NCBI RefSeq assembly: GCF_001428045.1
Contig: NZ_LMSD01000012.1
Location: 248,101-312,100 of the forward strand
From: Paenibacillus sp. Soil750
GTDB taxonomy: Bacteria; Bacillota; Bacilli; Paenibacillales; NBRC-103111
DNA: 64,000 bases
Direction: 5' to 3'
Shown one piece after another: positions 13,543 to 55,072 of the stretch. The notes beneath the pieces were generated by a model. That model ran no database searches and had not been told where the DNA came from. It was given only the letters and a program-made list of their open reading frames with translations. Within the stretch, counting starts at the first letter, position 1. Each line of letters begins with the position of its first letter. The position numbers and the translations under genes are program-made.

Positions 13543-13688
13543 GCTAGCTCCCCCTCGAACTTTGCGATACCTTGATTATAAAAGAAGTACTGAGGCTTTT
13601 CTTTGTCCAGAAAGCCGATTTTTTTGTAATTTCGGCTGTGTTATGATAGACCTATACGAATTGCATCGAAAGATCAGGAGTGACACCC

Positions 13689-37810: not shown

Positions 37811-37865
37811 AGTTTAGGGGAATCGATTCTCCGTCACAATGAGGGCATGGCACGATATAGATCGG
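37811..37865 (-). promoter_or_regulatory. Promoter D with a weaker shared activator box
   Basis: TTGTGA (37839-37834), 17 bases, TAAACT (37816-37811). The box at 37837-37865 begins CAATGAGGGCAT and keeps CGA, but its distal half diverges from the other three. It drives the GH-A gene and lies just past the response-regulator stop. Confidence 0.55.
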
Positions 37866-37888
37866 AATAGTCGGAAACTGAATCTGAC

Positions 37889-38977
37889 TTAACGCTCCAT
37901 TCGTTTTTTGAATTCGGCGGGAGTTAAGCCAAACTGTTCTTTAAATACCTGAGAAAAGTGAACACTGTTATCGTATCCTACATCGTGTGCAATCTCATAA
38001 ATTCGCTTATCGGTGCCTAGCAGCAATTCTCTCGCTTTCCCCATCCGTATTTGAATCAAATAGTTCCAAACCGTCGTTCCGGTTTCCTGTTTGAATAAAT
38101 GGGCGAAATGATTCCTGCTTATCGCAACCTGATCCGCAATTTCCTGCAAATTCAGCTTATCTGCGTAATGGTCGTTTATGAATGCTTTTACCTCTTCTAT
38201 CGCCCTGCGGGACGGTTGGTCCTTAACGGCTTGTGTGACTGCAAAAATCCGTTGTGCCCCTTCCTCCAGACGGCGAACCGCACACAAGCGGAAATAGCTG
38301 CGAACTTTATCTTGCAGAATCGTCTTTTCCCAAAGGCCTAAATCTTTGCCCTCTTGCAGCTCAATTTTGACCTTTTCTTTCTTGAGCTCTTCCACAATCA
38401 TTTCCAACCATGCCATGGAAAGGGGATTTAACAAATAGAATCGGTCTCCTGCCAGACTCTCCAACATATCCAAGGTATCCACGACTAAGAGCGGAAGCGT
38501 CTCGAGCTGAACGGTCTGGATGTGCAGTACCCATCGCTGAAGCATGTCCTGATGATGAGGAATCGATCGCATGAACAGCATAGCGGCTTCCGCTCGCCGC
38601 TGCGTGGCCACCTCACCGATTGCTCGGGCAAGAGCTCCATTCAGCTGCTCCTGGTCCACAGGCTTGATAATATAATCGATGGCTCCGAGCTGCATACTTG
38701 TTTTGGCAAATTCAAATTCGTCATAGCTGGAAACGACCACAGAAATCATCCACGGATATCTCTCGTTGACCTTCGCAATCAGATCCAGCCCGCCCATCAG
38801 CGGCATTTTGACATCCGTCACACAGATATCCGCGTAATGTTCCTCCAACCATTCCAGAGCCTTCACACCGTTGGCTGCCAAGCCAGAAACAACGGTTTCC
38901 TCGCTGAATTGCTCGATTTTGCTTGCTAAACTCGACCGAATAAGGTGCTCGTCATCTGCGATAAGTACACGGAACAT
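37889..38977 (-). CDS. AraC-type response regulator (YesN-like)
   Basis: A 362-residue regulator. The receiver domain has DDEH near residue 8, phospho-acceptor Asp in ICVTDVKMPLMGG near 56 and the conserved Lys in IIKPVD. The C-terminal double helix-turn-helix includes LNLQEIADQVAISRNHFAHL and IYEIAHDVGYDNSVHFSQVF. It follows the kinase gene by five bases. Its likely targets are the four promoters with the shared box (37811, 44365, 45256, 52546). Confidence 0.93.
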   Translation of the reverse strand: MFRVLIADDEHLIRSSLASKIEQFSEETVVSGLAANGVKALEWLEEHYADICVTDVKMPLMGGLDLIAKVNERYPWMISVVVSSYDEFEFAKTSMQLGAIDYIIKPVDQEQLNGALARAIGEVATQRRAEAAMLFMRSIPHHQDMLQRWVLHIQTVQLETLPLLVVDTLDMLESLAGDRFYLLNPLSMAWLEMIVEELKKEKVKIELQEGKDLGLWEKTILQDKVRSYFRLCAVRRLEEGAQRIFAVTQAVKDQPSRRAIEEVKAFINDHYADKLNLQEIADQVAISRNHFAHLFKQETGTTVWNYLIQIRMGKARELLLGTDKRIYEIAHDVGYDNSVHFSQVFKEQFGLTPAEFKKRMER

Positions 38978-38982
38978 TTCGG

Positions 38983-40803
38983 CTATCGCTCCTTTTGGCT
39001 GTTCAATCTATAGGGAATTCTTACGGTGACCTTAACGCCTCCAAGACGGCTTCCTTTACTAATTTCGACACCTACACCATTCATCTGGTAAAAGGCTTGC
39101 AAACGGAAATGAACGTTTAAGAGACCGACATTCGTGAGCGAGGCGTATTCTTCTTGCGATGGCGTCACCTGTAGCAGTCGAGTCCGGAAAGCTTCCAGCC
39201 GCTCCTCGTCGTAGTTTTTTCCATTATCTTCAAAAATGATCGAGACGAAGTCACCGTCCCGCTGCGCAGATACCTCCAAACATGTCAGCTCACCTGTGGT
39301 TTCAATGCCGTGCTTTATGGCATTTTCCGCAATAGGCTGTAGAATGACTTTTAAACAAAGCACCTCACGGCAGTCCTCCGGTATGTGAATGTGGTAGCTG
39401 ACTTCCTCTCCAAATCGGATACGGCTTATATTCATATAGTGATTGACATGAGCAATCTCATCCTCCAACTTCACAAGCATATCCTGGTAGTTGGATGTGT
39501 ATCTAAGCATGCGCGATAACGAAATGGAGGTCTTCTCGATGTCAGTATGTCCAGCTAAATGAGCCATGGAATTAATAGATTCTAGTGAATTATATAAAAA
39601 ATGAGAGCGGATCTGGGACTGCATCGCAGAGAATACGGCTCGTTGCTGCATCAACTGTGTCTCCGTCAACTGTAGGATCGAGTCTTCGAGCTCATTCAAC
39701 ATCCGGTTAAAGGAATGGCTTAAATCCGATACTTCGTCCGAACCTTCAATATGAATGCGATCCCTGAAATTCCCATACTGAGCCCGCTTCATATGGGACC
39801 TGAGCTTGGACAAACGACTTGTAATCGAAGTGGCAACCAAAGTGACAAGAATGATCGCAAGAAGGATACCTGTCGATGCGATCCCGATCGTGACATTACG
39901 AACCCTATTGATGCTGGACGTGATATCTTGATTGGAAAGAATCGCGACCGTTTTCCAACCGGTGTAAGGGATCGTATCGAATACAATCAGCTGTTGCGTT
40001 TCTTTTCGAAGGTACGTACCGCTTTGCGCAGTCAATTGTTCGGTAATATCGGGTTCCAGAACGCTGCCCACTTGCGATTGATTCTGATGAACCAAAATGG
40101 TTCCATCTGGTTTGGCAATAAGTCCTATACCTTTATCTCCAAGCTCCATCTGGTTGAGAATGGTTTGCACCGGCTCCAGTGAGATATCCATCTTCAGGAA
40201 CCCTTTGGCATCAGGCTCGCCAAATTGGCCAGCCATCGACAAGATAAGTACTTGCTCCGGATTACTTTTATAATTCACATATGCGGTACTTTGAACGACA
40301 CGATGATGAACCTTCTCGAGCCGACCAACTTCACTCAGCCATGGCTCGTTTGCCATCGAATAATCCTTGGATAGCCCCGAAGTGAGCGCGTAATTAAATT
40401 CGCCGCCTTTATCCGATAACATAGATATGGACATGATCTCAGGCTGGCGCACAAGAAAAGACCGCAAGTAATTACGCTCCAAAGAATGAAAACCGGAAAT
40501 GAGCTCGAAGCGATCCATTGGATCAACTTTGAGCCACTCTGTGAACTCATTGCTTGTTCCAAGAACCAGAAGTCCACGCTCATATTCCATGTATTGTCGG
40601 TTCAGATTGAGATTGGCTTGACGCAAAATCTGCTCGCTGAAATGAGAAACGTCCTGCCGGATGGTTCGGGACGTATCGTAATAGCTGAAAAACCCGATCA
40701 TCGACACCATTGACACAATGATAACGATGAGCAGGCTAACCAGCTTCCATTTTAAGGAGGCATGTATTTTTTTCCACACTTCTGCATCTACACCCCCATA
40801 CAA
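38983..40803 (-). CDS. Sensor histidine kinase (YesM-like)
   Basis: About 606 residues: helix near residues 20-42, an extracellular Cache-like domain to about 290, second helix (ASTGILLAIILVTLVATSIT), HAMP, then the His_kinase/HATPase pair. The phospho-acceptor is in SHFLYNSLESINSMA near 405; the N-box is ILQPIAENAIKHGIETTGEL. It probably senses an external sugar. The start at TTG 40803 is uncertain; GTG 40779 (giving MWKKIHASLKWK) is an alternative. Confidence 0.92.
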   Translation of the reverse strand: MYGGVDAEVWKKIHASLKWKLVSLLIVIIVSMVSMIGFFSYYDTSRTIRQDVSHFSEQILRQANLNLNRQYMEYERGLLVLGTSNEFTEWLKVDPMDRFELISGFHSLERNYLRSFLVRQPEIMSISMLSDKGGEFNYALTSGLSKDYSMANEPWLSEVGRLEKVHHRVVQSTAYVNYKSNPEQVLILSMAGQFGEPDAKGFLKMDISLEPVQTILNQMELGDKGIGLIAKPDGTILVHQNQSQVGSVLEPDITEQLTAQSGTYLRKETQQLIVFDTIPYTGWKTVAILSNQDITSSINRVRNVTIGIASTGILLAIILVTLVATSITSRLSKLRSHMKRAQYGNFRDRIHIEGSDEVSDLSHSFNRMLNELEDSILQLTETQLMQQRAVFSAMQSQIRSHFLYNSLESINSMAHLAGHTDIEKTSISLSRMLRYTSNYQDMLVKLEDEIAHVNHYMNISRIRFGEEVSYHIHIPEDCREVLCLKVILQPIAENAIKHGIETTGELTCLEVSAQRDGDFVSIIFEDNGKNYDEERLEAFRTRLLQVTPSQEEYASLTNVGLLNVHFRLQAFYQMNGVGVEISKGSRLGGVKVTVRIPYRLNSQKER

Positions 40804-40810
40804 GTGAAGA

Positions 40811-40845
40811 ACAACCCTCTTCCGGGAAACCCGGTCGAGGGTTGC
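40811..40845 (-). terminator. Hairpin between the importer operon and the kinase gene
   Basis: AACCCTC and GAGGGTT form an outer stem with an inner CCGGG/CCCGG pair. Only GTTCTTC follows on the minus strand, so termination is likely partial and the two-component genes could be read from the importer promoter. Confidence 0.6.
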
Positions 40846-40862
40846 TTTCCAAACCCAATGAC

Positions 40863-42407
40863 CTATTTTTTCCTATTTTTATTGTACCAGTCTGTACGCT
40901 CCTTGACCATCTGATCGCCGCCTTGCTTGCGCCAGGTTTTAACGAACTCGTCAAAGTGTTCAACAGGTGCTTTGCCAAGTACAATTTTGCTGCCTTCTTC
41001 AAGGAACATCGTATCAATGTTGTACGTGTTTTTGGCAGCCGGCATGCCTACAGCCTCATTCTTGAACCCTTCTTTATCGCCTACAGCCCATGCAGCCTTC
41101 AACTTGGCGAAAGCAGCAGGATTACTTAGTTTGGCTTCCTCTACCGCAGGATTCGTACCATGAATCTTGAAGATCACGTTAAATGCTTTATTTTTCTCCA
41201 TCTTCGCTGTGTCAACTATGATCTTGCCGTTTTCTTTTTTATAAGAATCTCCTTCTTGCCCCAAATCGGTGAACATCTGGCCATCTTCGCTCATCAGCCA
41301 ATCAAAATATTTGATAACGGCTTCCGGATTTTTGGTACTCTTCATGATGATGTACGTTTTGGCAACCGGGCTCCAGCGGGTGCCGAGAGGACCATCATAA
41401 CCTGTACCTCGCGGAGTAGGAATGGCTACGACATTCGGTTTATCGTTCGGAATCGTTTTGTCTAGATCAGCTTGCCATTGCCATGCCAGTTGTTGTGTGT
41501 GCGACCACATGCCGACCAACCCGGATTTGATTTTCTGTTCCCAAACCGTCCTGGAATTGGTCAGAAACTCCGAATCCATTACTTTTTCGTCCACCATCGA
41601 TTTGATAAATCCAAGCGATTGCTTCATATTGGGATGAATATTCTGGATGATCACTTCGTTGTTGTAATAAACTTCCGTGTAGGAGTTATTGACGCCCCAC
41701 ATGCCGAAGATATTGTCACCCCAAGTGAATTTCTCCCGCATGGAGAATGGGATTTCATCCTTCTTGCCGTTTCCGTTCGGGTCTTTATCCCGGAATGCCT
41801 TTAGAACAGTCATCAGTTCATCGGAAGTTTTGGGAGCTTGCAGTCCTAGCTTATCCAACCAGTCTTGACGAACGTAAAGCGTTGAATTCGAATTACTGGA
41901 AGGCTGCGGAATGGCCAGAATTTTCCCGTTTACAGATACAGCATCCCATGCAGCTTGAGGAATATTCTTTTTCAAATTTGGACCAAATTTATCGATCAGA
42001 TCGTTCAGTTCGAGAACCTTGCCTGCGGCAATCAGATCAGCTTCAGGGCCTGACCAAGATTGATAGACATCTGGGAAATCACCGGATGCAAATTTCAGCT
42101 TAAGCTGGTCTTCATACTGCGAATGGGGTAAGGATACCAAGTCCATGTCCGTGTTCGTTTTCTTCTCCATGTAGACAATGTTGGGATCATTCGCATCCAA
42201 TGGAGGAAGTGACTGATCGGAAGCAAACATCCGGATTTTAACTGGTGCCGCTGGTACCGCTGGTGTTGCGGTAGCTGCTTGCGTTGCCACTGAAGTTTTG
42301 GTTGCTTCAGGCGTGCTGACCGTATTGTCTTCCCCGTTTCCACAGCCTGCAGCTAGTAGCGAGAAAGCGGACAATATAAATGCTGTTTGCTTAAACCCTT
42401 TTCTCAT
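40863..42407 (-). CDS. Sugar-binding lipoprotein of an LplABC-type importer
   Basis: A 514-residue family 1-type binding protein. The lipobox LLAAGC ends at residue 22, followed by a low-complexity Thr/Ala/Pro linker. Seen: YMEKKTNTDMDLVSLPHSQY, FPDVYQSWSGPEADL, and KAFRDKDPNGNGKKDEIPFS, a calcium-like loop typical of LplA proteins. The third gene of the importer operon. Oligosaccharides from pectin-like or other complex glycans are plausible cargo; no direct proof. Confidence 0.92.
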   Translation of the reverse strand: MRKGFKQTAFILSAFSLLAAGCGNGEDNTVSTPEATKTSVATQAATATPAVPAAPVKIRMFASDQSLPPLDANDPNIVYMEKKTNTDMDLVSLPHSQYEDQLKLKFASGDFPDVYQSWSGPEADLIAAGKVLELNDLIDKFGPNLKKNIPQAAWDAVSVNGKILAIPQPSSNSNSTLYVRQDWLDKLGLQAPKTSDELMTVLKAFRDKDPNGNGKKDEIPFSMREKFTWGDNIFGMWGVNNSYTEVYYNNEVIIQNIHPNMKQSLGFIKSMVDEKVMDSEFLTNSRTVWEQKIKSGLVGMWSHTQQLAWQWQADLDKTIPNDKPNVVAIPTPRGTGYDGPLGTRWSPVAKTYIIMKSTKNPEAVIKYFDWLMSEDGQMFTDLGQEGDSYKKENGKIIVDTAKMEKNKAFNVIFKIHGTNPAVEEAKLSNPAAFAKLKAAWAVGDKEGFKNEAVGMPAAKNTYNIDTMFLEEGSKIVLGKAPVEHFDEFVKTWRKQGGDQMVKERTDWYNKNRKK

Positions 42408-42448
42408 ATTAACCTTCCTCTCAGATCTTGTTTATGAATCAAAGCGTG

Positions 42449-43327
42449 TTACTCTTTGATCGAACCGATGAGTGCGCCCTTAATAAAGTGCTTCTGGATG
42501 AAAGGGTAAACCAAAAGGATCGGAACTGTCGCGACTAGAATCGTTGCCATCTGCAGACCTTGCGGGGAAAGGACGACGTTGGATTCAACAAGGGAAGCCA
42601 TTTCCTCGTTCATGTTAAACTGTGCAATCAAATTATAAAGATACAGCTGCAACGGCCTCTGTTTGAAATCATTGATGTACAGCAGAGCGGAAAAGTAATT
42701 ATTCCAATGACTTACGGCATAAAAGAGAATCAAAGTCACCATGATTGGCGTTGATAAAGGAACTGCAATTCGCCACAAAATGGAGAACTCCTTCATACCA
42801 TCTACCCGGGCAGCCTCGAACAGTTCCTCTGGCAGCGACCGGAAGAAGGTCAGGCATATAAACATATTGAAGGCCGAAATCGCACCAGGAATGATTAAAG
42901 CCCATACTGTGTTCAGCAAGTGAAGATTTTTTACAATTAAGTACGTCGGAATCATTGGCGCTTGGAAGATCATCGTGAAGACAATCAGCAGTAGAATGAT
43001 ATTTTTCCCTTTAAGACCCTGCTTAGCGAGCGGATATGCGGTTACGACTGTCATGAACATGTTGACCGCTGTTCCGACTACGACGATGAATAAGGTGATG
43101 CCAAATGATCTCCAAAACACTTTATTTTCCATCACTACCTGATAATTCGTAACATTTAAACCTTTAGGCCAAAAAGTAACTTCCCCCCGGATCAGCGCCT
43201 CCGGCGAACTAAGCGAGCTTGCGATGATATAAAGGAAGGGCAGCATAACAGCAGCGCACGCAATTAGCAGTACGATGTAGTTAAACGCATCGAAGACTTT
43301 TTCTCCGAATGTGAGACGATAGCGCAT
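42449..43327 (-). CDS. Carbohydrate ABC importer permease (LplC/YesQ type)
   Basis: A 292-residue MalG-type permease with six helices and the EAA loop EELFEAARVDGMKEFSILWR IAVPLSTP. The final KHFIKGALIGSIKE is typical of LplC proteins. GAGGGGG precedes the ATG. It pairs with the next permease; no ATPase is encoded, as usual for systems powered by MsmX-like shared ATPases. Confidence 0.93.
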   Translation of the reverse strand: MRYRLTFGEKVFDAFNYIVLLIACAAVMLPFLYIIASSLSSPEALIRGEVTFWPKGLNVTNYQVVMENKVFWRSFGITLFIVVVGTAVNMFMTVVTAYPLAKQGLKGKNIILLLIVFTMIFQAPMIPTYLIVKNLHLLNTVWALIIPGAISAFNMFICLTFFRSLPEELFEAARVDGMKEFSILWRIAVPLSTPIMVTLILFYAVSHWNNYFSALLYINDFKQRPLQLYLYNLIAQFNMNEEMASLVESNVVLSPQGLQMATILVATVPILLVYPFIQKHFIKGALIGSIKE

Positions 43328-43344
43328 TGCTTGTTCCCCCTCTC

Positions 43345-44313
43345 TTAGAATAGACGCTCGCCAGTCGTACTGCGGCTGATCCGGTTAGCAACAATTAATA
43401 GTCCGAACCCGACAATCGACTTAAACAATCCAATCGCCGTAGTCATGCTGTATTCACCTTTGAGAATGCCTTCCCGATATGCGTACGTATCGATAATGTC
43501 CCCAACCTCATACGTAATTGGACTCAGGAAGACATAGATTTGCTCGACGCCCAGATCGAGGGTATGCCCGATTTTCAATAGCAGAAGCAGCATGATCGCT
43601 GGCATCATACCGGGAAGCGTTACATGCAAGAGCTGCCTCCAGCGACTTGCTCCATCGATTCGAGCAGCTTCGTACAACGAAGGATTGATTCCCGCAATTG
43701 CCGCTAAGAAAACAATTGCGCTCCAACCCGCTTCCTTCCACATTCCGGAGCTGACGACAATCGTACGAAACCAGCTTGGCTCTTGTAGGAAAAAGATCGG
43801 CTCGTAACCGAAGGCCTTTACCATATGATTAATAAGTCCGATCTGGGGGGACAACAGCATGTAACCGAAGCCTGCAATGATGATCCACGATAGAAAATGA
43901 GGCAGATAAACGATGGTCTGTATGGTCCTGCGCATCGCCATGCTTCTGATCTCATTCAATAGAATGGCAAGTATGATTGGAGCAGGAAAAGCAAAGATCA
44001 GTTGATAAAAGCTAATGGCCAACGTGTTCCATAACAACCGTCGGAAGTGTACAAACTCGAAAAACTGCTGAAACCATTTGAAGCCTACCCAATCGCTTTG
44101 CAAGAAGCCGCCATACAAGTTGTACTCTTGAAACGCTATAATGCTTCCTAATAAAGGAACATACTTGAATATTAAAAAGTATAAAATACCTGGTGCCAAC
44201 ATCGCATAAAACGGCCAAAAACGCCTCATATAGCGAAATGTTGGGATTCCGGCAAGTCGCGTGTGCTTATTCTGAAGCGCCGCATCCTTCGCACTTGTCG
44301 GTGCATTACTCAT
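43345..44313 (-). CDS. Carbohydrate ABC importer permease (LplB/YesP type)
   Basis: A 322-residue MalF-type permease. Seen: YAMLAPGILYFLIFKYVPLL in helix 1, SWIIIAGFGYMLLSPQIGLI, EAA loop SLYEAARIDGASRWRQLLHV TLPGMMP, and the ending NRISRSTTGERLF common to LplB proteins. First gene of the importer operon, with a GGGAGG ribosome site and promoter A about 50 bases upstream. Confidence 0.93.
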   Translation of the reverse strand: MSNAPTSAKDAALQNKHTRLAGIPTFRYMRRFWPFYAMLAPGILYFLIFKYVPLLGSIIAFQEYNLYGGFLQSDWVGFKWFQQFFEFVHFRRLLWNTLAISFYQLIFAFPAPIILAILLNEIRSMAMRRTIQTIVYLPHFLSWIIIAGFGYMLLSPQIGLINHMVKAFGYEPIFFLQEPSWFRTIVVSSGMWKEAGWSAIVFLAAIAGINPSLYEAARIDGASRWRQLLHVTLPGMMPAIMLLLLLKIGHTLDLGVEQIYVFLSPITYEVGDIIDTYAYREGILKGEYSMTTAIGLFKSIVGFGLLIVANRISRSTTGERLF

Positions 44314-44364
44314 GAAGTTCGCCTCCCTCTTTGCTGAGATGTATCTTGGTCTCTTCTTACTTAA

Positions 44365-44419
44365 ATTGTAAGTGAAGCGTTTACACCAAACAATAAGGGG
44401 ATCAACCGAAAAGCATAGG
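44365..44419 (-). promoter_or_regulatory. Promoter A: shared activator box, -35/-10 and an internal cre-like site
   Basis: TTGTTT (44393-44388), 17 bases, TACAAT (44370-44365). The activator box occupies 44391-44419 and overlaps the -35. The 17-base spacer is almost entirely GTGTAAACGCTTCAC, which resembles the CcpA cre site, so activation by the local regulator and catabolite repression can both act here. Confidence 0.7.
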
Positions 44420-44506
44420 AATCGTCTTGGGTTGTCTGGTTGATTAATTCATGAGCCCGTTTTTTCCAGGATTTGTACGAACAGATCGAACGATTATCTA
44501 TTATTC

Positions 44507-45196
44507 TTATTCTTTTATTTCGTCTTCATCCAGACGGTACACTTGTAAATTCGCATATTCAGCGATCAAAGGCGCCATCTGACGTAAACCGATCTTGCCG
44601 CTGCCCAGAACGTGACCATATTCTGTGCCATCGTCCTCCCACTCCAATACAGGCAGTTCGTTTATTGCAAAACGGACCTTCGCCCCCTGCTTCCGAAGCA
44701 TCATATGATAGGGCGATATACAATCCTCCACATTTGGAATCGGATCCGCACCTTGAGCTACTAAATGAAAACCATAGCTTTTGCGCAAATTGCATGTATG
44801 AAATCCTCTTTCATCTGGGTACCGACGCCGGAAATAAGAAATATGCAACGCGTTGATGTCTCCGTGCGTGTAATGTGCATATTGTCCAGACCGTTCGTTC
44901 AAATTGGTGGCGAACAAATCTTCCCCGTACTTTCCGGCTGCAGCAAAAAACATCATACTCAGACCAGGCTCCTTAACTGGCCAAAAATCCCACTCCACCT
45001 GAATGTCTCCAGGAAATTCTTCAGGACACCAGAACACATAATTGGCCATTTGTTCCAAGCTTTCGTCGAGCGCGTTTTCCATCCGCAGTCTGCCGTTAGG
45101 AAATGTGATTTTAGCCATGCCTTCCAACTTGAAGTCCTGAATATCCTCAATCGATGCCAGCTTATTTTCGTAGATTAGCGTCCGCTTTTCTGACAT
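44507..45196 (-). CDS. DUF1961-family protein (YesU-like)
   Basis: A 229-residue beta-rich protein, likely a concanavalin-like jelly roll. Seen: PGDIQVEWDFWPVKEPGLSM MFFAAAG and YAHYTHGDINALHISYFRRR. YesU in the Bacillus rhamnogalacturonan locus is of this family, and the surrounding YesMN- and Lpl-like genes fit. The biochemical role is unknown; a carbohydrate lyase or binding role is possible. It has its own promoter with the shared box. Confidence 0.82.
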   Translation of the reverse strand: MSEKRTLIYENKLASIEDIQDFKLEGMAKITFPNGRLRMENALDESLEQMANYVFWCPEEFPGDIQVEWDFWPVKEPGLSMMFFAAAGKYGEDLFATNLNERSGQYAHYTHGDINALHISYFRRRYPDERGFHTCNLRKSYGFHLVAQGADPIPNVEDCISPYHMMLRKQGAKVRFAINELPVLEWEDDGTEYGHVLGSGKIGLRQMAPLIAEYANLQVYRLDEDEIKE

Positions 45197-45255
45197 TGTC
45201 TCTATTCCCCCTACCTGACTTTTTCTTTCTAAAATTTAGAAGTTCCTTTATCTCT

Positions 45256-45310
45256 ATTCTATCGCTAGCGCCTGCACCCAACAAGGAGGAGATCTTCCGA
45301 AATGCATAGG
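45256..45310 (-). promoter_or_regulatory. Promoter B: shared activator box upstream of the DUF1961 gene
   Basis: TTGTTG (45284-45279), 17 bases, TAGAAT (45261-45256). The box at 45282-45310 reads CAAGGAGGAGATC, then CCGAAATGCATAGG, almost identical to A and C in its distal half. Confidence 0.7.
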
Positions 45311-45394
45311 GTTAACAGGCTTCTCACACAAATTAAGCCGTCCTGCTTACGCAGAACGGCTTGAGTATACATAGGGATAAACTATCCCGATTCA

Positions 45395-48256
45395 CTATGG
45401 CAGAAGACCCGTTCCCTGATAAGGCGATGTCGCATCCAGCCTGAAATCCTCCTTCATTGGTGTCAGAAGACTCCATGTGGCTGGATTTGTAGCAGGATTC
45501 TTGCCCGTGTGGGTCCCTGCTTCCACATTTTTGTACAGATTACCTGTTGGGAAATCATACACATAATCTCCGTAATTGAAATAAATCGGGACAGCGTATA
45601 AATCCGAATAGTCATCCCATCTTTCAACTAGGCTCCAATCAAAGGTAGAAGAGAAGGGCGCAACATCCTTGAATTTAATCGGAGCTAAACTTGCATTAGT
45701 CGTATTACCCGTTGCGGTAATATTGCCTAATGTCCCGTTGTTTCCAGCTATGCTGTCAATGAAAACTTGCCCGCCATCTCGTGTATTGTTCGTGAAGACC
45801 ATCGGATTGTGCGTATTGTCCGAAACATAGAACATTTTGTTCGAATTCACATGTCCACCAGGAATTTCATCATAGTGGAAATTGATTTGCCGAATCACAT
45901 TATTTTCAAACCTGAATTTCGATGCATAATTGGAAGGCGTATCATGGATATAGGCAAATATATCCCTACTATGGGAGAAGTAATTGTCATGCATCACAAC
46001 TTCATCTGTAGGATCTGGTGTCTCTCCTGGAGCTGCAGAAAATCTTAATGTAAATAAGGAGCTGGCGGTGCCAATAAATACGTTATTATAGATCTCAGCA
46101 CTGCCGGTTCTTTGACCATACTGGAAGGTACCGTCCTGCCATTGCTGGAATGGATCTTTCCAATCAAGAGCGTTCATGACGACAACGTTATTATAAACCT
46201 TGACGCCATCTCCCATATTGGTCAATTGTATACCTTCCGTACCGGATCTTAAGACCCGATTATTAAAGATTTCCAGATTGGTGAAGATATGCTGTTTGCT
46301 GATATCACTGCTGGTATTACCAATGTACATCCCTTCCGATTCCGAATCGTGGATGTACATATCATGGATTTTTACGCCATCCATGGTCGCCGTCGGAACA
46401 CCGTCCGTTTTAATCAATAGACCAGCGAATCCGGCATGTGCAACCTCTATATGCGCAAGCTCGAAGTTTGTGGCGTTCTTGCTTACACTGATGCCATTGG
46501 AATCGTTGCGGCCCACTTCAATTCCATATTTGCCTGCGGAAGTCAAGTAATTTCCATTCTGATGCCCTTGGAAATTGACATGACCTGTTTTAAGCACACT
46601 GTCATATTTGCCTGTTAGAATCCAATGTTTACCGCCTTCGATGGACAACGTATACGAATAGGTGCCGCTGACTTTTACCTGACCGCCATAGTTTGTAATA
46701 ATCAGCGGATTACTGGCCGTCCTTAGCGGTAGATTCCCAAGTTTAATGTATTGATAATTCCCGGCAGGGATGTAAAGCCGTTCAAGTGTCTGCCAGTTGA
46801 CATTTGGGAAAGAAGCTTGCAAGTCAATGTAGTAGATGGAAGTAGCCCCTTGAACGGGCAATATCAATTGGCTGTATTGGGAGATGGCCAGATCGAATGT
46901 GCCAAATATACCGGATCCATCCTGCGCAGTTGCCTTTACCGTTACGTTCCCATCCGATTCCGCTGTCAGCAGGCCGCTTGAAGTAATCGTAGCGCTTCCG
47001 GTTCCGTTCACAACCGACCAAGTGACGTTGGCATTCGTTGCATCGAAAGGCTGCACAACAGCCGACATCTGCAGTGTACTACCCGTTAATAGGCTGGTGG
47101 CTCCTCCCGCTCCTGTTACGGTTATTCCACTTACAGCACGATAGGGTGAGTCTTGAATCCCGTTGCCATTCTCGTCAATCCATCCAACGAACGCGTATTC
47201 ACTGGCCCTATTCGTCATCGAAAGAGGACTGCGTGCTAACAAATACCTGGCCTTCGGCACCACAGGGTTGCTGGTGACATCTTTGTCCTTCACCCATGCT
47301 GTCGTTGCTCCGGTTGACAGATTTTGCGCACTGTTGAAGTTGATTCGCGTTTCCGTGAAACCGCTGTCATTCACCGTGTCAATGTCATCATCCCACCAAA
47401 GTGACGCATAGGGTGTCTGGTTTCCTGAACTAGAGGCTCTGTATTTGGTCCATGTTGACGTTAATCTCACCTTGCTCCAATCCGCTCCAAAGTCCATATA
47501 GCCCACCCTGTCGGCATAGGCTGGCGCATCATCCGCTGTTGTGCCTCCCGTCGGTTGACCCGTTAGAGAATCGAGACTTGGCTGACCATCAAAAGCGTTA
47601 TCTAGAGGGTAAAACTGGCTTCCACTCGCCTGTCCCGCCACAGTAGGTGTAATGATTTTATAGGACTCCTCAACGAGATATCCCACCATTGCATATTCGC
47701 TCGCTCGGTTTGTCATGTTGATTGGAGAGCGAAGCATCAAATACCGTCCCGATGGCGAAACCGGGCTGAGACTTACGTCATTGTCCTGTATCCAAGGTGT
47801 TGTAGTGCCTGTGTTGGGGAGATCCTGTACACTGTTGAAGTTAAGATGAGTTTCCGTTAATCCACTGTCATTGGTCATGTCGATATCGTTGTCCCACCAT
47901 ACTTCAGTATAGGGGGTCATATCACCGACACTTGATGTCCTATACTTCGTCCAGGTAGATGTGATTCGTATATTTGCCCAATTCGTGCCGAGATCCACAT
48001 ATCCGACCCGGCTCGTGGAATAGGCTGGCGCATTGTTCGGTCCTGCACCACCGACTGGCACTCCGGTAACATCGAGCGCAGCATCCGTACTGTCAAAAGC
48101 ATTCTCTAACGGAAAGAATGTACTTCCCGTCGCCGCTCCGGCAGCGGAAGGTTGAATCATCTGCAACGCTCCATTTGCCATTACAGTGCTTCCCATGAGC
48201 AAAAACGCAAGCAACATCAGGTTGACAATCAACGTACTCGTGAGCAATTTTTTCAT
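45395..48256 (-). CDS. Secreted parallel beta-helix protein with two N-terminal modules and a Big2 domain
   Basis: A 953-residue protein with signal peptide (basic MKKLL, hydrophobic core, VMANGA). Two tandem copies of a roughly 170-residue module follow: each has FYPLDNAFDG-type, VGYMDFGADWSKVRLTSTWT and MTNRASEYAFVGW segments. A Big2/Ig-like domain (VSGITVTGAGGATSLLTGST, VTWSVVNGTGSATIT) comes next, then a long right-handed beta-helix with KIHDMYIHDSESEGMYIGNT and NNRVLRSGTEGIQLTNMGDG. Probably a polysaccharide lyase or hydrolase; the catalytic residues are not identified. It is a close paralogue of the next gene. Confidence 0.85.
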   Translation of the reverse strand: MKKLLTSTLIVNLMLLAFLLMGSTVMANGALQMIQPSAAGAATGSTFFPLENAFDSTDAALDVTGVPVGGAGPNNAPAYSTSRVGYVDLGTNWANIRITSTWTKYRTSSVGDMTPYTEVWWDNDIDMTNDSGLTETHLNFNSVQDLPNTGTTTPWIQDNDVSLSPVSPSGRYLMLRSPINMTNRASEYAMVGYLVEESYKIITPTVAGQASGSQFYPLDNAFDGQPSLDSLTGQPTGGTTADDAPAYADRVGYMDFGADWSKVRLTSTWTKYRASSSGNQTPYASLWWDDDIDTVNDSGFTETRINFNSAQNLSTGATTAWVKDKDVTSNPVVPKARYLLARSPLSMTNRASEYAFVGWIDENGNGIQDSPYRAVSGITVTGAGGATSLLTGSTLQMSAVVQPFDATNANVTWSVVNGTGSATITSSGLLTAESDGNVTVKATAQDGSGIFGTFDLAISQYSQLILPVQGATSIYYIDLQASFPNVNWQTLERLYIPAGNYQYIKLGNLPLRTASNPLIITNYGGQVKVSGTYSYTLSIEGGKHWILTGKYDSVLKTGHVNFQGHQNGNYLTSAGKYGIEVGRNDSNGISVSKNATNFELAHIEVAHAGFAGLLIKTDGVPTATMDGVKIHDMYIHDSESEGMYIGNTSSDISKQHIFTNLEIFNNRVLRSGTEGIQLTNMGDGVKVYNNVVVMNALDWKDPFQQWQDGTFQYGQRTGSAEIYNNVFIGTASSLFTLRFSAAPGETPDPTDEVVMHDNYFSHSRDIFAYIHDTPSNYASKFRFENNVIRQINFHYDEIPGGHVNSNKMFYVSDNTHNPMVFTNNTRDGGQVFIDSIAGNNGTLGNITATGNTTNASLAPIKFKDVAPFSSTFDWSLVERWDDYSDLYAVPIYFNYGDYVYDFPTGNLYKNVEAGTHTGKNPATNPATWSLLTPMKEDFRLDATSPYQGTGLLP

Positions 48257-48284
48257 CCACTACTTACCTCCTCATAGAAATCTA

Positions 48285-48313
48285 TACATAACCGCAGTAG
48301 CGGACTATGTCAA
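48285..48313 (-). promoter_or_regulatory. Sigma-A promoter of the 45395 gene
   Basis: TTGACA (48313-48308), 17 bases, TATGTA (48290-48285), giving a leader of about 20 bases. It lies in the 114-bp gap between the paralogues. The -10 and spacer share an 18/20 match with 51310-51329, but that second copy lacks the -35 at this spacing. Confidence 0.55.
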
Positions 48314-48370
48314 ACGATTCGAGTCTGGTTTTCATGCAGGTGATGAGTGAAGACGAATATACGTGACAGT

Positions 48371-51283
48371 TCAGTTACCTATCGTATTTTGAAGAAACGC
48401 CAAGTCCGCGAGAATGACGTCTGCGAACGCTGCATTAATATGTTTGCCTTTTTGCGAGCTTACTGCATTAGTCATGGATTGGATGCTGTTTTCGAATTTC
48501 TTGGCATTGCCTTGATCTCGCTGAATATTTTTCACGTGAGACATCAAGCTATTGCGGATACCGTTATTGCTAATCCATTCGTTAGTACTTCCGTATTCCA
48601 CCAATTCCTCCAAATGATCCGCATCCATTCGAATGACAAGTTCTAATTCCACCACGGTTTGGTTACCAGCCCTGTCTAAAGCCGTAACAACGATCGGATA
48701 CGTTCCGACCCCCAACTCATAAGCGTTTAAAGCGATCGTGCTCCCCACTGGCTCCCCATTGAAAATCACTTTAAGCGAATGTAAGCCGCTTCCTCCGTTA
48801 TCGTTAGCCGTAATGTCTACAGCAACTGATTCGGTTTGCAAGAACGACAGCTGCTCCGATGATTCGATGACTGGCGGCGTGGAATCAAACGTCTCCGTTC
48901 CTCCGTCTAACAGACCTATGCCCTGATACGGAGATGCTGGGTCGAGTCTAAAGTCTTCCTTCATCCGCGTCAAGAGCCTCCAGGTTGAAGGATTCGTCGT
49001 AGGATTTTTACCCGTGTGGGTTCCCGGCTCAATGCTTTCGTACAATTCACCGGTTGGGAAATAATAAACATAATCGCCATAATTGAAATAGATCGGCTCT
49101 TTATACAAATCCGAGTAATCGTCCCATCTCTCCACCTTACTCCAGTCAAAATCGACAGGGAACGTCACATCTCTGAAAAGAATTGGTTCCGCATCAGCTA
49201 ACGTGCTGTTGTCTGTTGCCGATATGTTGCTTGTAGTCCCGTTATTTCCTCCAATTGCATCAATGAATACTTGCTCGCCGTCAACGGTATTGTTACGGAA
49301 AATCATCGAATTGTGTGTATTGTCTTGAACATAAAGTAATTTGTTCGCATTTACTTGTTCGCCAGGTAACTCATCGTATTGGTAATTGAATTGCTGGACG
49401 ATATTGTTCTCGAACCGGAATTTCGACGCGTAGTTGGAAGGCGTATTATGAACATAGGCAAGGATATCTCGTCCATAGGAGAAGTAATTGTTGCGGAACA
49501 CGACTTCATCTGTCGGATCAAGTAGCTCTCCGGGTGCTGCCGATAATCTTAGCGTGAAAAGGTTGCTAGCACCTCCGATAAACACATTGTCAGAGATTTC
49601 TGCGCTTCCAATGCGTTGACTATACTGGAAGACCCCGTCCTGCCAGAGCTGGAATGGATCTTTCCAATCCAGAGAGCTCATCACGACTACATTGTTATGA
49701 ACTTTGATGCCATCCCCCATATTGGATAACTGAATGCCTTCCGTTCCTGACCGCAGGACCCTGTTGTTGTAGATCTCCAGATTGGTAAAAATATGCTGTT
49801 TGCTGAGATCGCTGCTGGTATTGCCGATATACATCCCTTCAGACTCCGCATCATGGATGTACATATCATGGATTTTAACACCGTCCATAGTTGCTGTCGG
49901 TACACCATCTGTCTTAATTAACAGTCCCGCAAAACCGGCATGAGCAACTTCCATATACGAAAGCTCGAAGTTTGTAGCACCGTTGCCTACACCAATCCCA
50001 TTGGACGTATTTCGGCCGACCTCTATACCGTATTTGCCAGCGGAATCGGCATAATTGCCGTCCTTATGTCCCTGATAGTGGACATCTCCGGTTTTTAATT
50101 CTTCGTTATATTCCCCAGTCAAAATCCAGTTCGCACCGCCTTCGATGGACAAGGTATAGGCGTGTGTACCGCTAACCGCTACTTTACCGCCATAGTTGGT
50201 AATAATCAGAGGATTATCGGCGCTACGTTTGGGGAGGTTGCCCAATTTGATATATTGATAGTCCCCCGAGGGAATGTACAAACGCTCAAGTGTTTGCCAA
50301 TTCACATTTTTGAAAGAGGCTTGCAAGTCCTTGTAATAGATGTTGGTATTTCCTTGATCAGGCAAGATCAACTGGCTGTACTTGGAAATGACAATCTCTT
50401 TATTTCCTGTCACGCCTGACCCATCTAGTGCCGTTGCCTTTACCGTCACCGTACCTTCCGAGCCTGCAGTAAGAAGTCCACTCGCATCAATGGTTGCGCT
50501 TCCGGTTCCGTTCTGGACGGACCACACATAGGATTTATTGGTTGCGGTAAAAGGCTGTACGACAGCCGACATTTGCAGTACAGTGTTCGTCAACATGCTA
50601 GTTGCCCCGCCTGTACCCGAGACGGTAATTCCGGATACAGCGCGGAACGGCGCCTCCTGAACTCCGTTGCCGTTGGCATCGATCCAACCAATCATTGCGT
50701 ATTCACTGGCTCTATTGGTCATCGTCGCAGGTCCACGGAGCAGCAAATATCTAGCCTTTGGCGAAACAGGGTTATCGCTGACATCACTGTCCATGAACCA
50801 TGGTGTCGTGGACCCCGTTGAAAGACCTTTTGCGCTATTGAAGTTGAGGCGACTTTCCGTGTAAACGCTGTCAATTACCGTGTTAATATCATTATCCCAC
50901 CAGAGTTCCGCATAGGGGGACTGATCGCCCGAACTGGACGCTCTGTATTTGGTCCATGTCGACGTGATCCTAACCTTGCTCCAATCTGCTCCGAAGTCCA
51001 AGTAACCAACTCTGCCTCCGTTATAAGCGGGGGCGTCCGCAGTTCCTACGCCCCCAATAGGAACGCCGGAATTCTCATCTAGATCCGGTTGACCGTCAAA
51101 GGCTCTATCCAGCGGGAAAAATTGACTTCCTGCAGCTGCACCTGCCGAGACCGGCCGAATAATTTGCAGTCCTTCTGTCCCCGCAAAGCTTTGTAGCGGT
51201 TCGCTTTCCATAGCTTGGATACCTGTAGGTACCATCCATAAGCTCAACATCATGCACATCCATATACTGCTAAGTCTCCTCAT
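48371..51283 (-). CDS. Secreted parallel beta-helix protein with Big2 and C-terminal Ig-like/helical domains
   Basis: About 970 residues from ATG 51283 (AAGGAGG upstream; an in-frame upstream start is rejected). Signal peptide MRRLSSIWM...GIQAMESEP. One N-terminal module, then a Big2 domain, then a beta-helix nearly identical to its neighbour (VPTATMDGVKIHDMYIHD in both). Unlike the paralogue it adds an Ig-like domain (TPPVIESSEQLSFLQTESVA, VTALDRAGNQTVVELE) and a helical tail near residues 875-970. Probably acts on an extracellular polysaccharide. Confidence 0.85.
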   Translation of the reverse strand: MRRLSSIWMCMMLSLWMVPTGIQAMESEPLQSFAGTEGLQIIRPVSAGAAAGSQFFPLDRAFDGQPDLDENSGVPIGGVGTADAPAYNGGRVGYLDFGADWSKVRITSTWTKYRASSSGDQSPYAELWWDNDINTVIDSVYTESRLNFNSAKGLSTGSTTPWFMDSDVSDNPVSPKARYLLLRGPATMTNRASEYAMIGWIDANGNGVQEAPFRAVSGITVSGTGGATSMLTNTVLQMSAVVQPFTATNKSYVWSVQNGTGSATIDASGLLTAGSEGTVTVKATALDGSGVTGNKEIVISKYSQLILPDQGNTNIYYKDLQASFKNVNWQTLERLYIPSGDYQYIKLGNLPKRSADNPLIITNYGGKVAVSGTHAYTLSIEGGANWILTGEYNEELKTGDVHYQGHKDGNYADSAGKYGIEVGRNTSNGIGVGNGATNFELSYMEVAHAGFAGLLIKTDGVPTATMDGVKIHDMYIHDAESEGMYIGNTSSDLSKQHIFTNLEIYNNRVLRSGTEGIQLSNMGDGIKVHNNVVVMSSLDWKDPFQLWQDGVFQYSQRIGSAEISDNVFIGGASNLFTLRLSAAPGELLDPTDEVVFRNNYFSYGRDILAYVHNTPSNYASKFRFENNIVQQFNYQYDELPGEQVNANKLLYVQDNTHNSMIFRNNTVDGEQVFIDAIGGNNGTTSNISATDNSTLADAEPILFRDVTFPVDFDWSKVERWDDYSDLYKEPIYFNYGDYVYYFPTGELYESIEPGTHTGKNPTTNPSTWRLLTRMKEDFRLDPASPYQGIGLLDGGTETFDSTPPVIESSEQLSFLQTESVAVDITANDNGGSGLHSLKVIFNGEPVGSTIALNAYELGVGTYPIVVTALDRAGNQTVVELELVIRMDADHLEELVEYGSTNEWISNNGIRNSLMSHVKNIQRDQGNAKKFENSIQSMTNAVSSQKGKHINAAFADVILADLAFLQNTIGN

Positions 51284-51377
51284 ACTTACCTCCTTATCGT
51301 GATACAAGTTATACATAACCGCGTTAGCGTGTCATGCCATACAGAACAGGGAGATTACTAATACGAGTGGGGATAAC

Positions 51378-52487
51378 TCATTCCAGCTCATTCCCCCAAA
51401 GCTTGCCAGAACCTTTGGACTTTCTCCAGGCATCGCGCCAGCGGTGAACGTCGCTCGCCGTGATTACTGGCATATTTTGACGCAATGATCTTTGCGGAAT
51501 CGCTGGAAAAGCTTTATGCGGCTCACTTTGGTACCAATAGGCAACACTGGCGATGTCTAATGTCAGCACGTTAGCATGCCCATGCTCAATACTGGAGCGG
51601 AGTGACTTGCGGAAGTGAATGGAATCCTCTAACAAAAAACGGTAACAATGCGTACGCCCCATAAAGCCTAGCTTATCCGGTATTCGGGCGTATCCGAAGT
51701 AAGGATGGGCATACAACTCGTTCGGGCACCAAGAGGAATTGAAGAAATCCTCCGTGCCTGTGCCATGCAGTGATCCCGGCCATGGTTCACCATCTACCAT
51801 AAACATGTCGTCGCCTTCTCCATACCACATCGGTCCTGGACTATCGACATAGTAATTAACGCCGACAAAATGCCCACGTCCCTCAATTTCTGCAAACAAA
51901 TAATTGCCTTCATCCGTTTGATTTTTCGGTGGTTCACCCATAAGTCCCCACTCGTTCTCTTGCTCACATGACGGTTCGGTTATTTCCCGGTTCCACCATG
52001 CGTGAAACCGTCCTGCATCGTCCGGTATAGAAGCATGCTCCTCATAATCAATGTAATAATAAAAAGAGGGGACCTCGGACTCCGAGTCGTTCTCGAGTGT
52101 GATTTTCGCACCATCGGAGAACGGCATCGGGAAGTAACAATTCAGTCCTCTTCCTCCTGCTGGAGCCGCAGCCATCGGAAGGGAGGCAAATAAATAATGC
52201 TCGCCCCAGCCCTGTCCGAAGAAATCGCCGATTGGACTTTGTACGCTTGGCTCCGATTCGCCGTCCCAGTACATGCGCAAAATTAGGTTGCGGTTGTACA
52301 TGGGATCCTTCGCATTGATCGTTATCCAAATATGTTTGATAATCCCCGCATTGTGCATCTCAGCAAGAACTGCTGTCTCTCCAGGCTTAATTTTAATATA
52401 ATCGTCATTTCCTCCCGATCGGTCGTAGCTCGAAACCCGAAATGTTTTGCAATCCTGAAATCGATACAATCCATCCAATAGGCCCAT
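51378..52487 (-). CDS. DUF2961 (GH172-type) protein
   Basis: About 369 residues from ATG 52487 (AGGAG eight bases upstream). Seen: IKHIWITINAKDPMYNRNLI, the family block SPIGDFFGQGWGEHYLFASL, LNCYFPMPFSDGAKITLEND, and DGEPWPGSLHGTGTEDFFNS. DUF2961 now includes GH172 enzymes acting on fructose or arabinofuranose linkages. No signal peptide. Driven by promoter C with the shared activator box. Confidence 0.87.
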   Translation of the reverse strand: MGLLDGLYRFQDCKTFRVSSYDRSGGNDDYIKIKPGETAVLAEMHNAGIIKHIWITINAKDPMYNRNLILRMYWDGESEPSVQSPIGDFFGQGWGEHYLFASLPMAAAPAGGRGLNCYFPMPFSDGAKITLENDSESEVPSFYYYIDYEEHASIPDDAGRFHAWWNREITEPSCEQENEWGLMGEPPKNQTDEGNYLFAEIEGRGHFVGVNYYVDSPGPMWYGEGDDMFMVDGEPWPGSLHGTGTEDFFNSSWCPNELYAHPYFGYARIPDKLGFMGRTHCYRFLLEDSIHFRKSLRSSIEHGHANVLTLDIASVAYWYQSEPHKAFPAIPQRSLRQNMPVITASDVHRWRDAWRKSKGSGKLWGNELE

Positions 52488-52545
52488 TAAGATCTCTCCT
52501 CGGTTTAGTGGTCGTAGGGAAGTTGACCTTCGCTTCATAATTCTT

Positions 52546-52600
52546 ATTGTATGGTTCGCCTATGCATCAAACAATGAGGCAATCCCCCGATTTGCATAGA
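52546..52600 (-). promoter_or_regulatory. Promoter C: shared activator box upstream of the DUF2961 gene
   Basis: TTGTTT (52574-52569), 17 bases, TACAAT (52551-52546). The box at 52572-52600 reads CAATGAGGCAATC, then CCGATTTGCATAG. Confidence 0.7.
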
Positions 52601-52629
52601 CATCGAACGGTACTTATTCATTCAATGAG

Positions 52630-52665
52630 AAAAACACGTACCCATCCCATCGGGACGTGTACGTG
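52630..52665 (-). terminator. Terminator of the GH88/DUF2264 operon
   Basis: CACGTAC/GTACGTG outer stem with an inner GTCCC/GGGA(T)G pair, then GTTTTTC on the minus strand; 17 bases past the DUF2264 stop. Confidence 0.75.
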
Positions 52666-52681
52666 CTTTGAAATGTCTAAT

Positions 52682-55017: not shown

Positions 55018-55072
55018 GTGTTAAACGTTTAACACTCATATTTAGATTAAATTGAAACGTTTAACCTGTCAA
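55018..55072 (-). promoter_or_regulatory. GH88 operon promoter with two LacI-type operators
   Basis: TTGACA (55072-55067), 17 bases, TAATCT (55049-55044). An 18-bp perfect palindrome GTGTTAAACGTTTAACAC (55018-55035) lies just after the start point. The spacer is a second copy, GGTTAAACGTTTCAATT (55050-55066). Two AACGTT operators covering the promoter and start point imply tight repression. Confidence 0.75.

Follow-up and report, generated by a model that had tools for sequence, protein, structure and literature searches.

The Bacillus subtilis YesM-YesN/YesOPQ/YesU locus encodes a kinase, an AraC-type regulator, a solute-binding protein, two permeases, the DUF1961 protein YesU, and a GH42 enzyme. 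Two-component control of an oligosaccharide importer is also found in XynDC/xynEFG of Geobacillus stearothermophilus. When gene content alone is compared (Pfam), the Paenibacillus cluster described here likewise combines a kinase, a regulator, a solute-binding protein, and two permeases with a DUF1961 gene, and its likeness to XynDC/xynEFG was compared solely in the two-component control of an importer. Rhamnogalacturonan lyase families gave no match among the 20 region proteins scanned.

Carbohydrate import in Caldicellulosiruptor bescii involves the AraC-type two-component regulators AviRS, MosSQ, BxgRS, AxeRS, and GxgRS, and the available text of PMC8579813 describes sites upstream of mapped promoters for three of the five AraC-domain two-component regulators. 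Judged from text descriptions, these systems resemble our cluster in their tandem-repeat sites and in having oligosaccharide importers encoded next to a local kinase-regulator pair. A fixed distance to the -10 element is not stated in that text, unlike the 33-bp phase reported below. In Clostridium cellulolyticum, the kinase XydS and the AraC-type response regulator XydR activate a polysaccharide-degradation cluster, and the effector domain of XydR binds upstream DNA, for which the available text gives no consensus (PMC3572039). XydR is larger (532 residues) than the regulator studied here (362 residues). The pneumococcal systems TCS07 and TCS09, called YesMN and YesNM in PMC11034029, have regulators of the YesN kind. 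As described in the accessible portion of that source, the RR07 motif is CTWWWWWWAG, and pneumococcal YesN has no clear repeat, with conserved AATTC and C/T stretches that may be direct-repeat parts. By eye, neither motif resembles the box that we describe. Binding sites seem to be known for few YesN-like regulators, and our searches of literature outside subscription journals recognized no published box for this regulator clade.

The window is the whole 64,000-nucleotide stretch of DNA that was analyzed. The genes relevant to this study are as follows.

36493..37767, minus strand: GH-A target gene, a glycoside hydrolase resembling the beta-agarase catalytic region (PDB 4bq2, E 8.9e-29)
37889..38977, minus strand: AraC-type response regulator (REC + AraC HTH), the putative activator at all four promoters
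38983..40803, minus strand: sensor histidine kinase (HAMP, His_kinase, HATPase_c; dCache_1 below cut-off)
40863..42407, minus strand: solute-binding protein of the importer
42449..43327, minus strand: permease of the importer
43345..44313, minus strand: permease of the importer, lead gene of the importer-kinase-regulator unit
44507..45196, minus strand: DUF1961 target gene
45395..52538, minus strand: DUF2961-headed target unit (co-transcription predicted from gene order)
48371..51316, minus strand: Big_2/beta-helix protein, second in the DUF2961-headed unit
45395..48256, minus strand: Big_2 protein, third in the DUF2961-headed unit

The response regulator carries Response_reg (E 5e-23) and HTH_18 (E 1.5e-23) domains, and its residues D55 and K105 are invariant among six aligned homologs. 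It adjoins a sensor kinase of the His_kinase/HATPase type, as expected in a YesN-like two-component system. Among relatives of the solute-binding protein with solved structures are AlgQ1/AlgQ2 and further extracellular solute-binding proteins of family 1. At an E threshold of 0.001, the GH-A gene product matches no Pfam or NCBIfam family. The DUF2961 gene was listed as 51378-52538, and its start with a ribosome-binding site is the ATG at 52487. The second and third genes of the unit, at 48371 and 45395, encode paralogous proteins (71% over 800 residues). A terminator-like hairpin (45335-45362) follows the DUF2961-headed unit.

Architecture of the box at four promoters

Each of the four target units is preceded by a promoter whose upstream region carries a related box.

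37811..37878, minus strand: GH-A promoter, the weakest of the four sites; -10 TAAACT 37811-37816, -35 TTGTGA 37834-37839, proximal half-site 37844-37858, distal half-site 37864-37878
44365..44432, minus strand: importer promoter; -10 TACAAT 44365-44370, -35 TTGTTT 44388-44393, spacer 17 bp, proximal half-site 44398-44412, distal half-site 44418-44432
45256..45323, minus strand: DUF1961 promoter; -10 TAGAAT 45256-45261, -35 TTGTTG 45279-45284, proximal half-site 45289-45303, distal half-site 45309-45323
52546..52613, minus strand: DUF2961 promoter; -10 TACAAT 52546-52551, -35 TTGTTT 52569-52574, proximal half-site 52579-52593, distal half-site 52599-52613

A shared box locked to the -35 element had been predicted at these promoters, and this claim is partly confirmed, with the strings proposed for the box serving as a consensus. 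The four sites lie where the original prediction placed them; their orientation is that of the minus strand, on which all the target genes are encoded. The predicted overlap with the -35 element and the 17-base spacer hold throughout, since TTGT.. occupies the -35 position and exactly 17 bases separate it from the named -10 element in all four cases. The predicted -35 and -10 hexamers are all present, although they had been listed in an order different from that of the promoters. A scan for the generic sigma-70 consensus picks up none of the four.

The shared strings are less uniform than had been proposed. The string CAATGAGG is exact in two sites, and the others have CAATAAGG and CAAGGAGG. 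ATC and CCGA, named as common elements, are each found in three sites, whereas the GH-A site has ATG and ACGA. TGCATAG, expected in three of the four, occurs in two, and it is the shorter GCATAG that occurs in three. The GH-A site is weak, lacks CTATGC, and differs from the others in its distal part.

The box that had been described corresponds to the proximal half of a longer site, whose distal half had been missed. The complete box is a 20-bp tandem direct repeat with a proximal core that begins 33 bp before the -10 element, and the direct-repeat signal at offset 20 has a z of 3.8 (0.007 over all offsets). The repeats are about two helical turns apart and adjoin the -35 element, as in a YesN-like regulon, and this arrangement matches the expectation for an AraC-type dimer.

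The short shared motif alone does not exceed chance: it has four window matches at up to three mismatches versus a mean of 1.78 in shuffles that preserve single-base composition only, and 10 of 100 shuffles reach four matches. A genome-wide motif search, which had been suggested as a check, found the full 29-mer box CTATGCNNNTCGGNNGATNNCCTNMTTGT confined to the cluster, with three matches in the 8.3-Mb genome (up to three mismatches allowed, none present in any match) and no match for the reversed control. This 29-mer misses the GH-A site. When one promoter at a time was left out of training, every held-out site (4/4) was the best non-training position on both strands of the 64 kb, the weakest being the GH-A site (17.9 versus 13.8 for the runner-up position). 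A 20-mer scan of the genome at up to three mismatches gave 18 matches versus 15 for the reversed control. By eye, the 14 matches outside the window have no convincing -10 element at the right distance, and therefore no wider regulon was detected in this genome. Across 104 family genomes, all 12 matches to the 29-mer with zero or one mismatch sit at loci of this regulator, and at up to three mismatches the count is at background level (35 versus 32 for the reversed control).

Conservation in relatives and phase at distant loci

Related strains had also been proposed as a place to look, and in three congeners every one of the 11 orthologous promoters retains the box. The boxes of the importer, DUF2961, and GH-A promoters are conserved in G010, G013, and G015, and that of the DUF1961 promoter is conserved in G013 and G015; G010 lacks a DUF1961 gene at the locus. 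Both the box and the 17-bp spacing are retained at all 15 sites of G000, G010, G013, and G015. Compared by eye, spacer sequences drift between species while the boxes stay.

A similar box is present at importer promoters in two other genera. G035 has the box at two promoters, with a 1-bp deletion in the importer box, and its regulator is 81% identical. G051, with a regulator 58% identical, has a similar box at the importer promoter and a -35 to -10 spacer of 16. Overall, regulator identity in the genomes that have boxes is 98, 98, 98, 81, and 58%, and the best in G020 is 47%. The G020 locus lacks the regulator, the kinase, the importer, and the GH-A gene; what is left of its DUF2961 promoter is a scar that breaks off within the box and retains the distal part alone, and its DUF1961 gene is kept without a box. 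This regulator loss is a single event, in the only relative seen to have lost the cassette.

A profile trained on the family of this locus was run upstream of importers linked to homologous regulators (46-57% identity). For the explored set, 49 regulator places yielded 20 loci beyond the relatives of the window, of which two near-duplicates were excluded, as were six loci whose stretch contained no suitable importer homolog. In the remaining 12 loci, which were inspected by eye before the phase was fixed, a distance of 33 bp from GAT to the -10 element is the top phase (summed score 141 versus at most 93 for any other). The fresh set drew on 11 further places (G055 among those left out) plus L166, L168, and L169, with L165 and L167 judged duplicates; 10 of the 14 were used, because four lacked a same-strand importer homolog. 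Phase 33 is again at the top in this set (summed score 98 versus at most 60 for any other).

The best site is at 33 bp in 11 and at 34 bp in 2 of the 22 distant importer promoters, several of whose loci resemble mutual orthologs. At 16 of the 22 loci there is a site scoring at least 10 at phase 33-34, and at 6 there is none. The AT core recurs upstream in all 16 of these sites, at 20 bp (6 loci) or 21 bp (10 loci).

The phase was also evaluated at importer promoters of YesN-type loci that are more distant. These 52 promoters were taken from 75 loci as an intended negative control, with looser picking (best permease homolog in the locus, either strand). The mean score at phase 33 is elevated (5.2, z 6.2), yet it is surpassed at phases 43 (6.1) and 25 (5.4), and the rule is therefore not universal. 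The set is not clean, given that an apparent ortholog group (L194, L196, L199, L204, and L212) has a CGGTAGAT-like site at phase 33. Some other matches in it (L201, L214, and L240) resemble coding DNA of the regulator itself.

When 30 genomes of the genus were searched for TCGAAAGAT with TANAAT 17-45 bases downstream, there was no real enrichment (95 versus 83 for the reversed control), and the phase was therefore tested at importer promoters only. Ten of the 95 matches are at phase 33, four of them no more than 3 kb from a clade regulator. The remaining phase-33 matches mostly recur near-identically or look coding.

The proposed regulon and competing explanations

We consider it very probable, from sequence comparison, that the response regulator at 37889-38977 binds the four boxes. 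The predicted link between the boxes and this local YesN-like regulator gains support from the comparative tests, because the boxes track the regulator, G020 has lost both, and the phase recurs with regulator homologs. The kinase encoded at 38983 would sense an extracellular oligosaccharide and phosphorylate the regulator, whose head-to-tail dimer may then occupy a tandem pair of half-sites 20 bp apart, each with a unit of roughly AAAnCGnAnnATnCC. Roughly four bases lie between the end of the downstream half-site and the -35 hexamer, so that the regulator could contact the polymerase sigma subunit at that point and initiate transcription from promoters whose own -35 elements are poor. The predicted targets are the importer operon, the DUF1961 gene, the DUF2961-headed unit, and the agarase-like hydrolase. 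Because the importer operon also carries the kinase and regulator genes, the circuit would probably form a positive loop.

It is improbable that the boxes serve another regulator, such as the one-component AraC-type proteins encoded at 29225-30142 and 13680-14585 or one encoded elsewhere. Position by itself does not prove binding, and both of these proteins have the same class of DNA-binding domain as the response regulator. However, the response regulator tracks the boxes, unlike either of these two proteins. In G010, which has boxes, the closest counterpart of the 29225 protein shows 40% identity and contains an internal stop. The 13680 protein is 95% identical in G020, where boxes were lost; among genomes with boxes, its identity is at most 44% over its length in G035 (67% over 165 residues) and 60% in G051. 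Moreover, the phase recurs at importers tied to homologs of the response regulator in other genera and families.

Even less probable is negative control, in which the regulator, perhaps when unphosphorylated, would obstruct the polymerase at the -35 element. The site does adjoin this element, and the available text of PMC11034029 mentions repression by unphosphorylated pneumococcal YesN as possible. Nevertheless, the -35 hexamers are poor both here and in homologous systems (TACCCC, TAGTCC, and TAGTGC), and a fixed distance to the -10 element is expected for polymerase contact, and less so for a blocker. The C. bescii tandem sites of three of the five regulators are also read as activator sites in the available text of PMC8579813. 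We give the least credence to the idea that the likeness reflects one promoter copied within the cluster, or the -35 element of an alternative sigma factor. The boxes are all in one cluster, where the paralogy of the 48371 and 45395 proteins indicates that copying has happened. Outside the boxes, however, spacers and leaders differ by eye among the four promoters and drift between species, and the -10 elements are ordinary. Neither version fits the 20/21-bp tandem repeat or its reappearance in distant systems.

Activation by the response regulator at 37889 would tie the four transcription units of the cluster into one regulon. Beyond this locus, there is a reasonable though far from certain case that a Paenibacillus-order regulator clade shares one cis rule, namely a tandem TCGnnAGATnCC-like repeat of 20/21 bp with its proximal core 33-34 bp from the -10 element, in which half-site variation tracks the two recognition helices. 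A similar switch at the same place in many related clusters suggests a readable rule of target choice for this sugar-sensor family. A search with the regulator returned 483 first-look candidates in this genome alone, some of which may not be true relatives. A fixed-phase site that holds across genera and families turns target finding into a sequence search and provides precise mutations to test. If the clade rule is true, many of these regulators could have their targets deduced from sequence, and the rule would supply a convenient system in which to decode AraC-type DNA specificity.

The spacer of the importer promoter contains a cre-like (CcpA) element, TGTAAACGCTTCA, which is one base off TGTAAACGCTTNCA and is conserved in four species. 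The TGTAAACGCTTNCA pattern is enriched genome-wide at up to one mismatch (40 versus 8).

A shared box and its tandem copy

Four minus-strand promoters in the window carry one common box fixed against the -35 hexamer, as the original prediction held, and in each case 17 bases lead to the -10.

GH-A gene promoter, 37811, minus strand: box, -35, 17 bases, -10
Importer promoter, 44365, minus strand: box, -35, 17 bases, -10
DUF1961 gene promoter, 45256, minus strand: box, -35, 17 bases, -10
DUF2961 gene promoter, 52546, minus strand: box, -35, 17 bases, -10

The minus strand encodes the genes behind these promoters and is the better one on which to read the box, CTATGC NNN TCGG NN GAT NN CCT N M TTGT, which enters the -35 and is followed by the -10 after 17 bases. 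The strings first proposed for the box hold as a consensus and not as exact letters at all four promoters: CAATGAGG is letter-perfect at two of the four sites, ATC and CCGA are each present at three, TGCATAG at two, and GCATAG at three. The accompanying -35 and -10 hexamers had been listed in an order that differs from that of the promoters. A generic sigma-70 consensus scan detected none of the four box promoters.

The box as first drawn covers the proximal copy of a repeat and the -35 only; the distal copy had been overlooked. When nine promoters were aligned, a direct repeat with a unit of approximately AAAnCGnAnnATnCC was observed at offset 20 (z 3.8 from 1000 joint column permutations; 0.007 once the best of all offsets is taken). 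The distal copy lies directly upstream, and at the importer cgATtCC precedes CTATGC. Members of the AraC family are expected to bind in this way, with both helix-turn-helix units on one repeat unit and the second monomer about two turns farther on.

The short motif originally described has no significance in the window on its own (10 of 100 shuffles equal its count), whereas the full box is significant. Weight matrices made from any three window promoters were used to score the fourth against the other window positions on both strands, and the held-out promoter ranked first in all four runs. Held-out scores were 25.2, 26.2, and 26.4, with 17.9 for the GH-A promoter; no other position scored above 15.7, or above 13.8 in the GH-A run. 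A 29-mer form of the box, searched with up to three mismatches in the 8.3-Mb genome, gave three matches, all exact and at the cluster, and its reversed control gave none. A looser 20-mer search returned 18 matches versus 15 in the control. The 14 matches beyond the four window sites have no convincing -10 by eye, and therefore, within the reach of this search, the regulon is local, although sites as divergent as that of GH-A could escape it elsewhere.

Association of the box with the regulator

The original proposal assigned these promoters to the local AraC-type response regulator (37889-38977, minus strand). Comparison among genomes favors this putative assignment, since the regulator tracks the boxes and the two AraC-type one-component proteins encoded in the window, which we compared as candidate rivals, do not. 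The best relative in congener G010 of the protein at 29225 is 40% identical and has an internal stop, yet G010 has boxes. Conversely, the protein at 13680 is 95% identical in G020, a relative where boxes are lost, and in box-bearing genomes of other genera it reaches 44% across its full length in G035, rising to 67% for a stretch of 165 residues, and 60% in G051. Neither follows the boxes in the way that the response regulator does.

Three congeners (G010, G013, and G015) have the cluster with a 98% identical regulator. The box and its 17-base spacing are kept at 11 of 11 orthologous promoters, a count that reflects the lack of a DUF1961 gene at the G010 locus, while spacers and leaders drift. 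In G035 the regulator is 81% identical and the importer box is present minus one base. A second box there, one mismatch from the 29-mer, heads a GH42 beta-galactosidase gene (L081:10695-12737), a target beyond those of the window cluster. In G051, which belongs to a further genus (regulator 58%), the importer promoter carries CAATAGAAATCGGAGGATGCCCTCATTGT, and 16 bases separate it from the -10. Across 104 genomes of the family, the 29-mer at zero or one mismatch gave 12 matches, all at the box loci described here; at up to three mismatches, 35 matches set against 32 for the reversed control show no enrichment (sums by the author).

G020 retains the neighborhood (PucR, alanine dehydrogenase, DUF2264, GH88, and the DUF1961 gene at 94%), and its locus lacks the regulator, kinase, solute-binding protein, permeases, and GH-A gene. 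The closest relative of the regulator anywhere in this genome is 47% identical. At L079:13860-14240, the DUF2961 promoter is a scar in which the distal part of the box is kept and the remainder, the -35, and the -10 are gone; all that is left of the DUF2961 gene is a fragment fused to the DUF1961 leader. The DUF1961 gene has likewise lost its box. This is what regulator loss would predict, but it is a single event that mere decay could explain.

Spacing at importers of homologous regulators

We examined the regions upstream of importer genes linked to regulator homologs (47-55% identity, 12 loci). The phase test was set after likely sites had been spotted by eye and combined a half-site matrix, built from seven sites of this locus's family alone, with a generic -10; the distance separating the first base of GAT from the -10 was scored over 22-45 bp. 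The summed score is 141 at 33 bp versus at most 93 at every other distance. The z at 33 bp is 10.3 (40 mononucleotide shuffles), but because other distances also reach z 5.9, it is safer to rely on how the distances differ from one another. With the test unchanged, a fresh set of homologs (46-57% identity, other families of the order included; 10 of 14 loci usable) gave 98 at 33 bp versus at most 60 elsewhere (z 9.8).

The best site lies at 33 bp in six of 12 explored and five of 10 fresh loci, and at 34 bp in two more of the 12. A site scoring at least 10 at 33 or 34 bp is present at 16 of the 22 pooled loci, a number that is effectively smaller because some look like mutual orthologs; three of the 16 (L254, L259, and L166) score higher at another distance. 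At all 16 sites the AT core recurs exactly 20 bp (six loci) or 21 bp (10 loci) upstream, a feature that played no part in their selection. The -35 position is often poor (TACCCC, TAGTCC, TAGTGC, TAGGAT). Importer genes at L120 and L125 are preceded by near-perfect tandem CCGAAAGAT...TCGAAAGAT repeats at 21 bp.

Among 52 importer promoters of more distant YesN-type loci, phase 33 has an elevated score (locus mean 5.2, z 6.2), compared with means of 11.8 and 9.8 for the two clade sets, but phases 43 (6.1) and 25 (5.4) exceed it. That set was chosen more loosely, one ortholog group supplies several matches, and some matches look coding. We read the 33-bp spacing as the rule of a single regulator clade, perhaps with a wider echo.

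Proposed mechanism, known systems, and neighboring units

About four bases separate the proximal half-site from the -35 hexamer, and its distance to the -10 is constant, the arrangement expected if an activator contacts sigma at the -35. The importer operon begins at its box promoter and encodes two permeases, the solute-binding protein, the kinase, and the regulator (gaps of 17, 41, 59, and 5 bases). Because both signaling proteins are encoded there, their levels would rise on their own signal. The substrate may be an acidic or galactose-containing oligosaccharide. This guess draws on the nearest structures of the solute-binding protein (family-1 and AlgQ-type) and the GH-A protein (beta-agarases), and on the GH42 enzyme of G035.

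A kinase and AraC-type regulator next to an importer is a known kind of system, as in XydS/R (PMC3572039) and the Caldicellulosiruptor bescii set (PMC8579813). In the latter, three of five AraC-domain two-component regulators have tandem sites upstream of mapped promoters, interpreted as activator sites. Pneumococcal YesN is of the same kind, with no clear repeat reported for it (PMC11034029). No published description of the box was recognized in the literature searched, whose coverage excluded subscription journals. If general, the spacing rule would go beyond adding one more system of known type.

Between the -35 and -10 of the importer promoter (44371-44387), a cre-like TGTAAACGCTTCA is shared letter for letter by four congeners, whereas other spacers drift, and it might add catabolite repression atop the activator. 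The GH88-DUF2264 genes (52682-54956) seem to be under another regulator: two LacI-type palindromes, TTAAACGTTTAA and TGAAACGTTTAA (55021-55064), flank and overlap their likely promoter and are kept in all five genomes compared, even in G020, where the two-component cassette is gone. Between DUF2264 and the DUF2961 promoter lies a long hairpin with a T-run (52628-52668), noted by eye and absent from the terminator-scan list, that would insulate the two units. The DUF2961 frame as listed (start 52538) opens only about 8 bases past the -10, and the likelier start is at 52487, where an ATG is served by the ribosome-binding site GGAGAG. Two large paralogous proteins (45395-51316; 71% over 800 residues) correspond to a single gene in G010, G013, and G015, and may reflect a recent duplication in the Soil750 strain.
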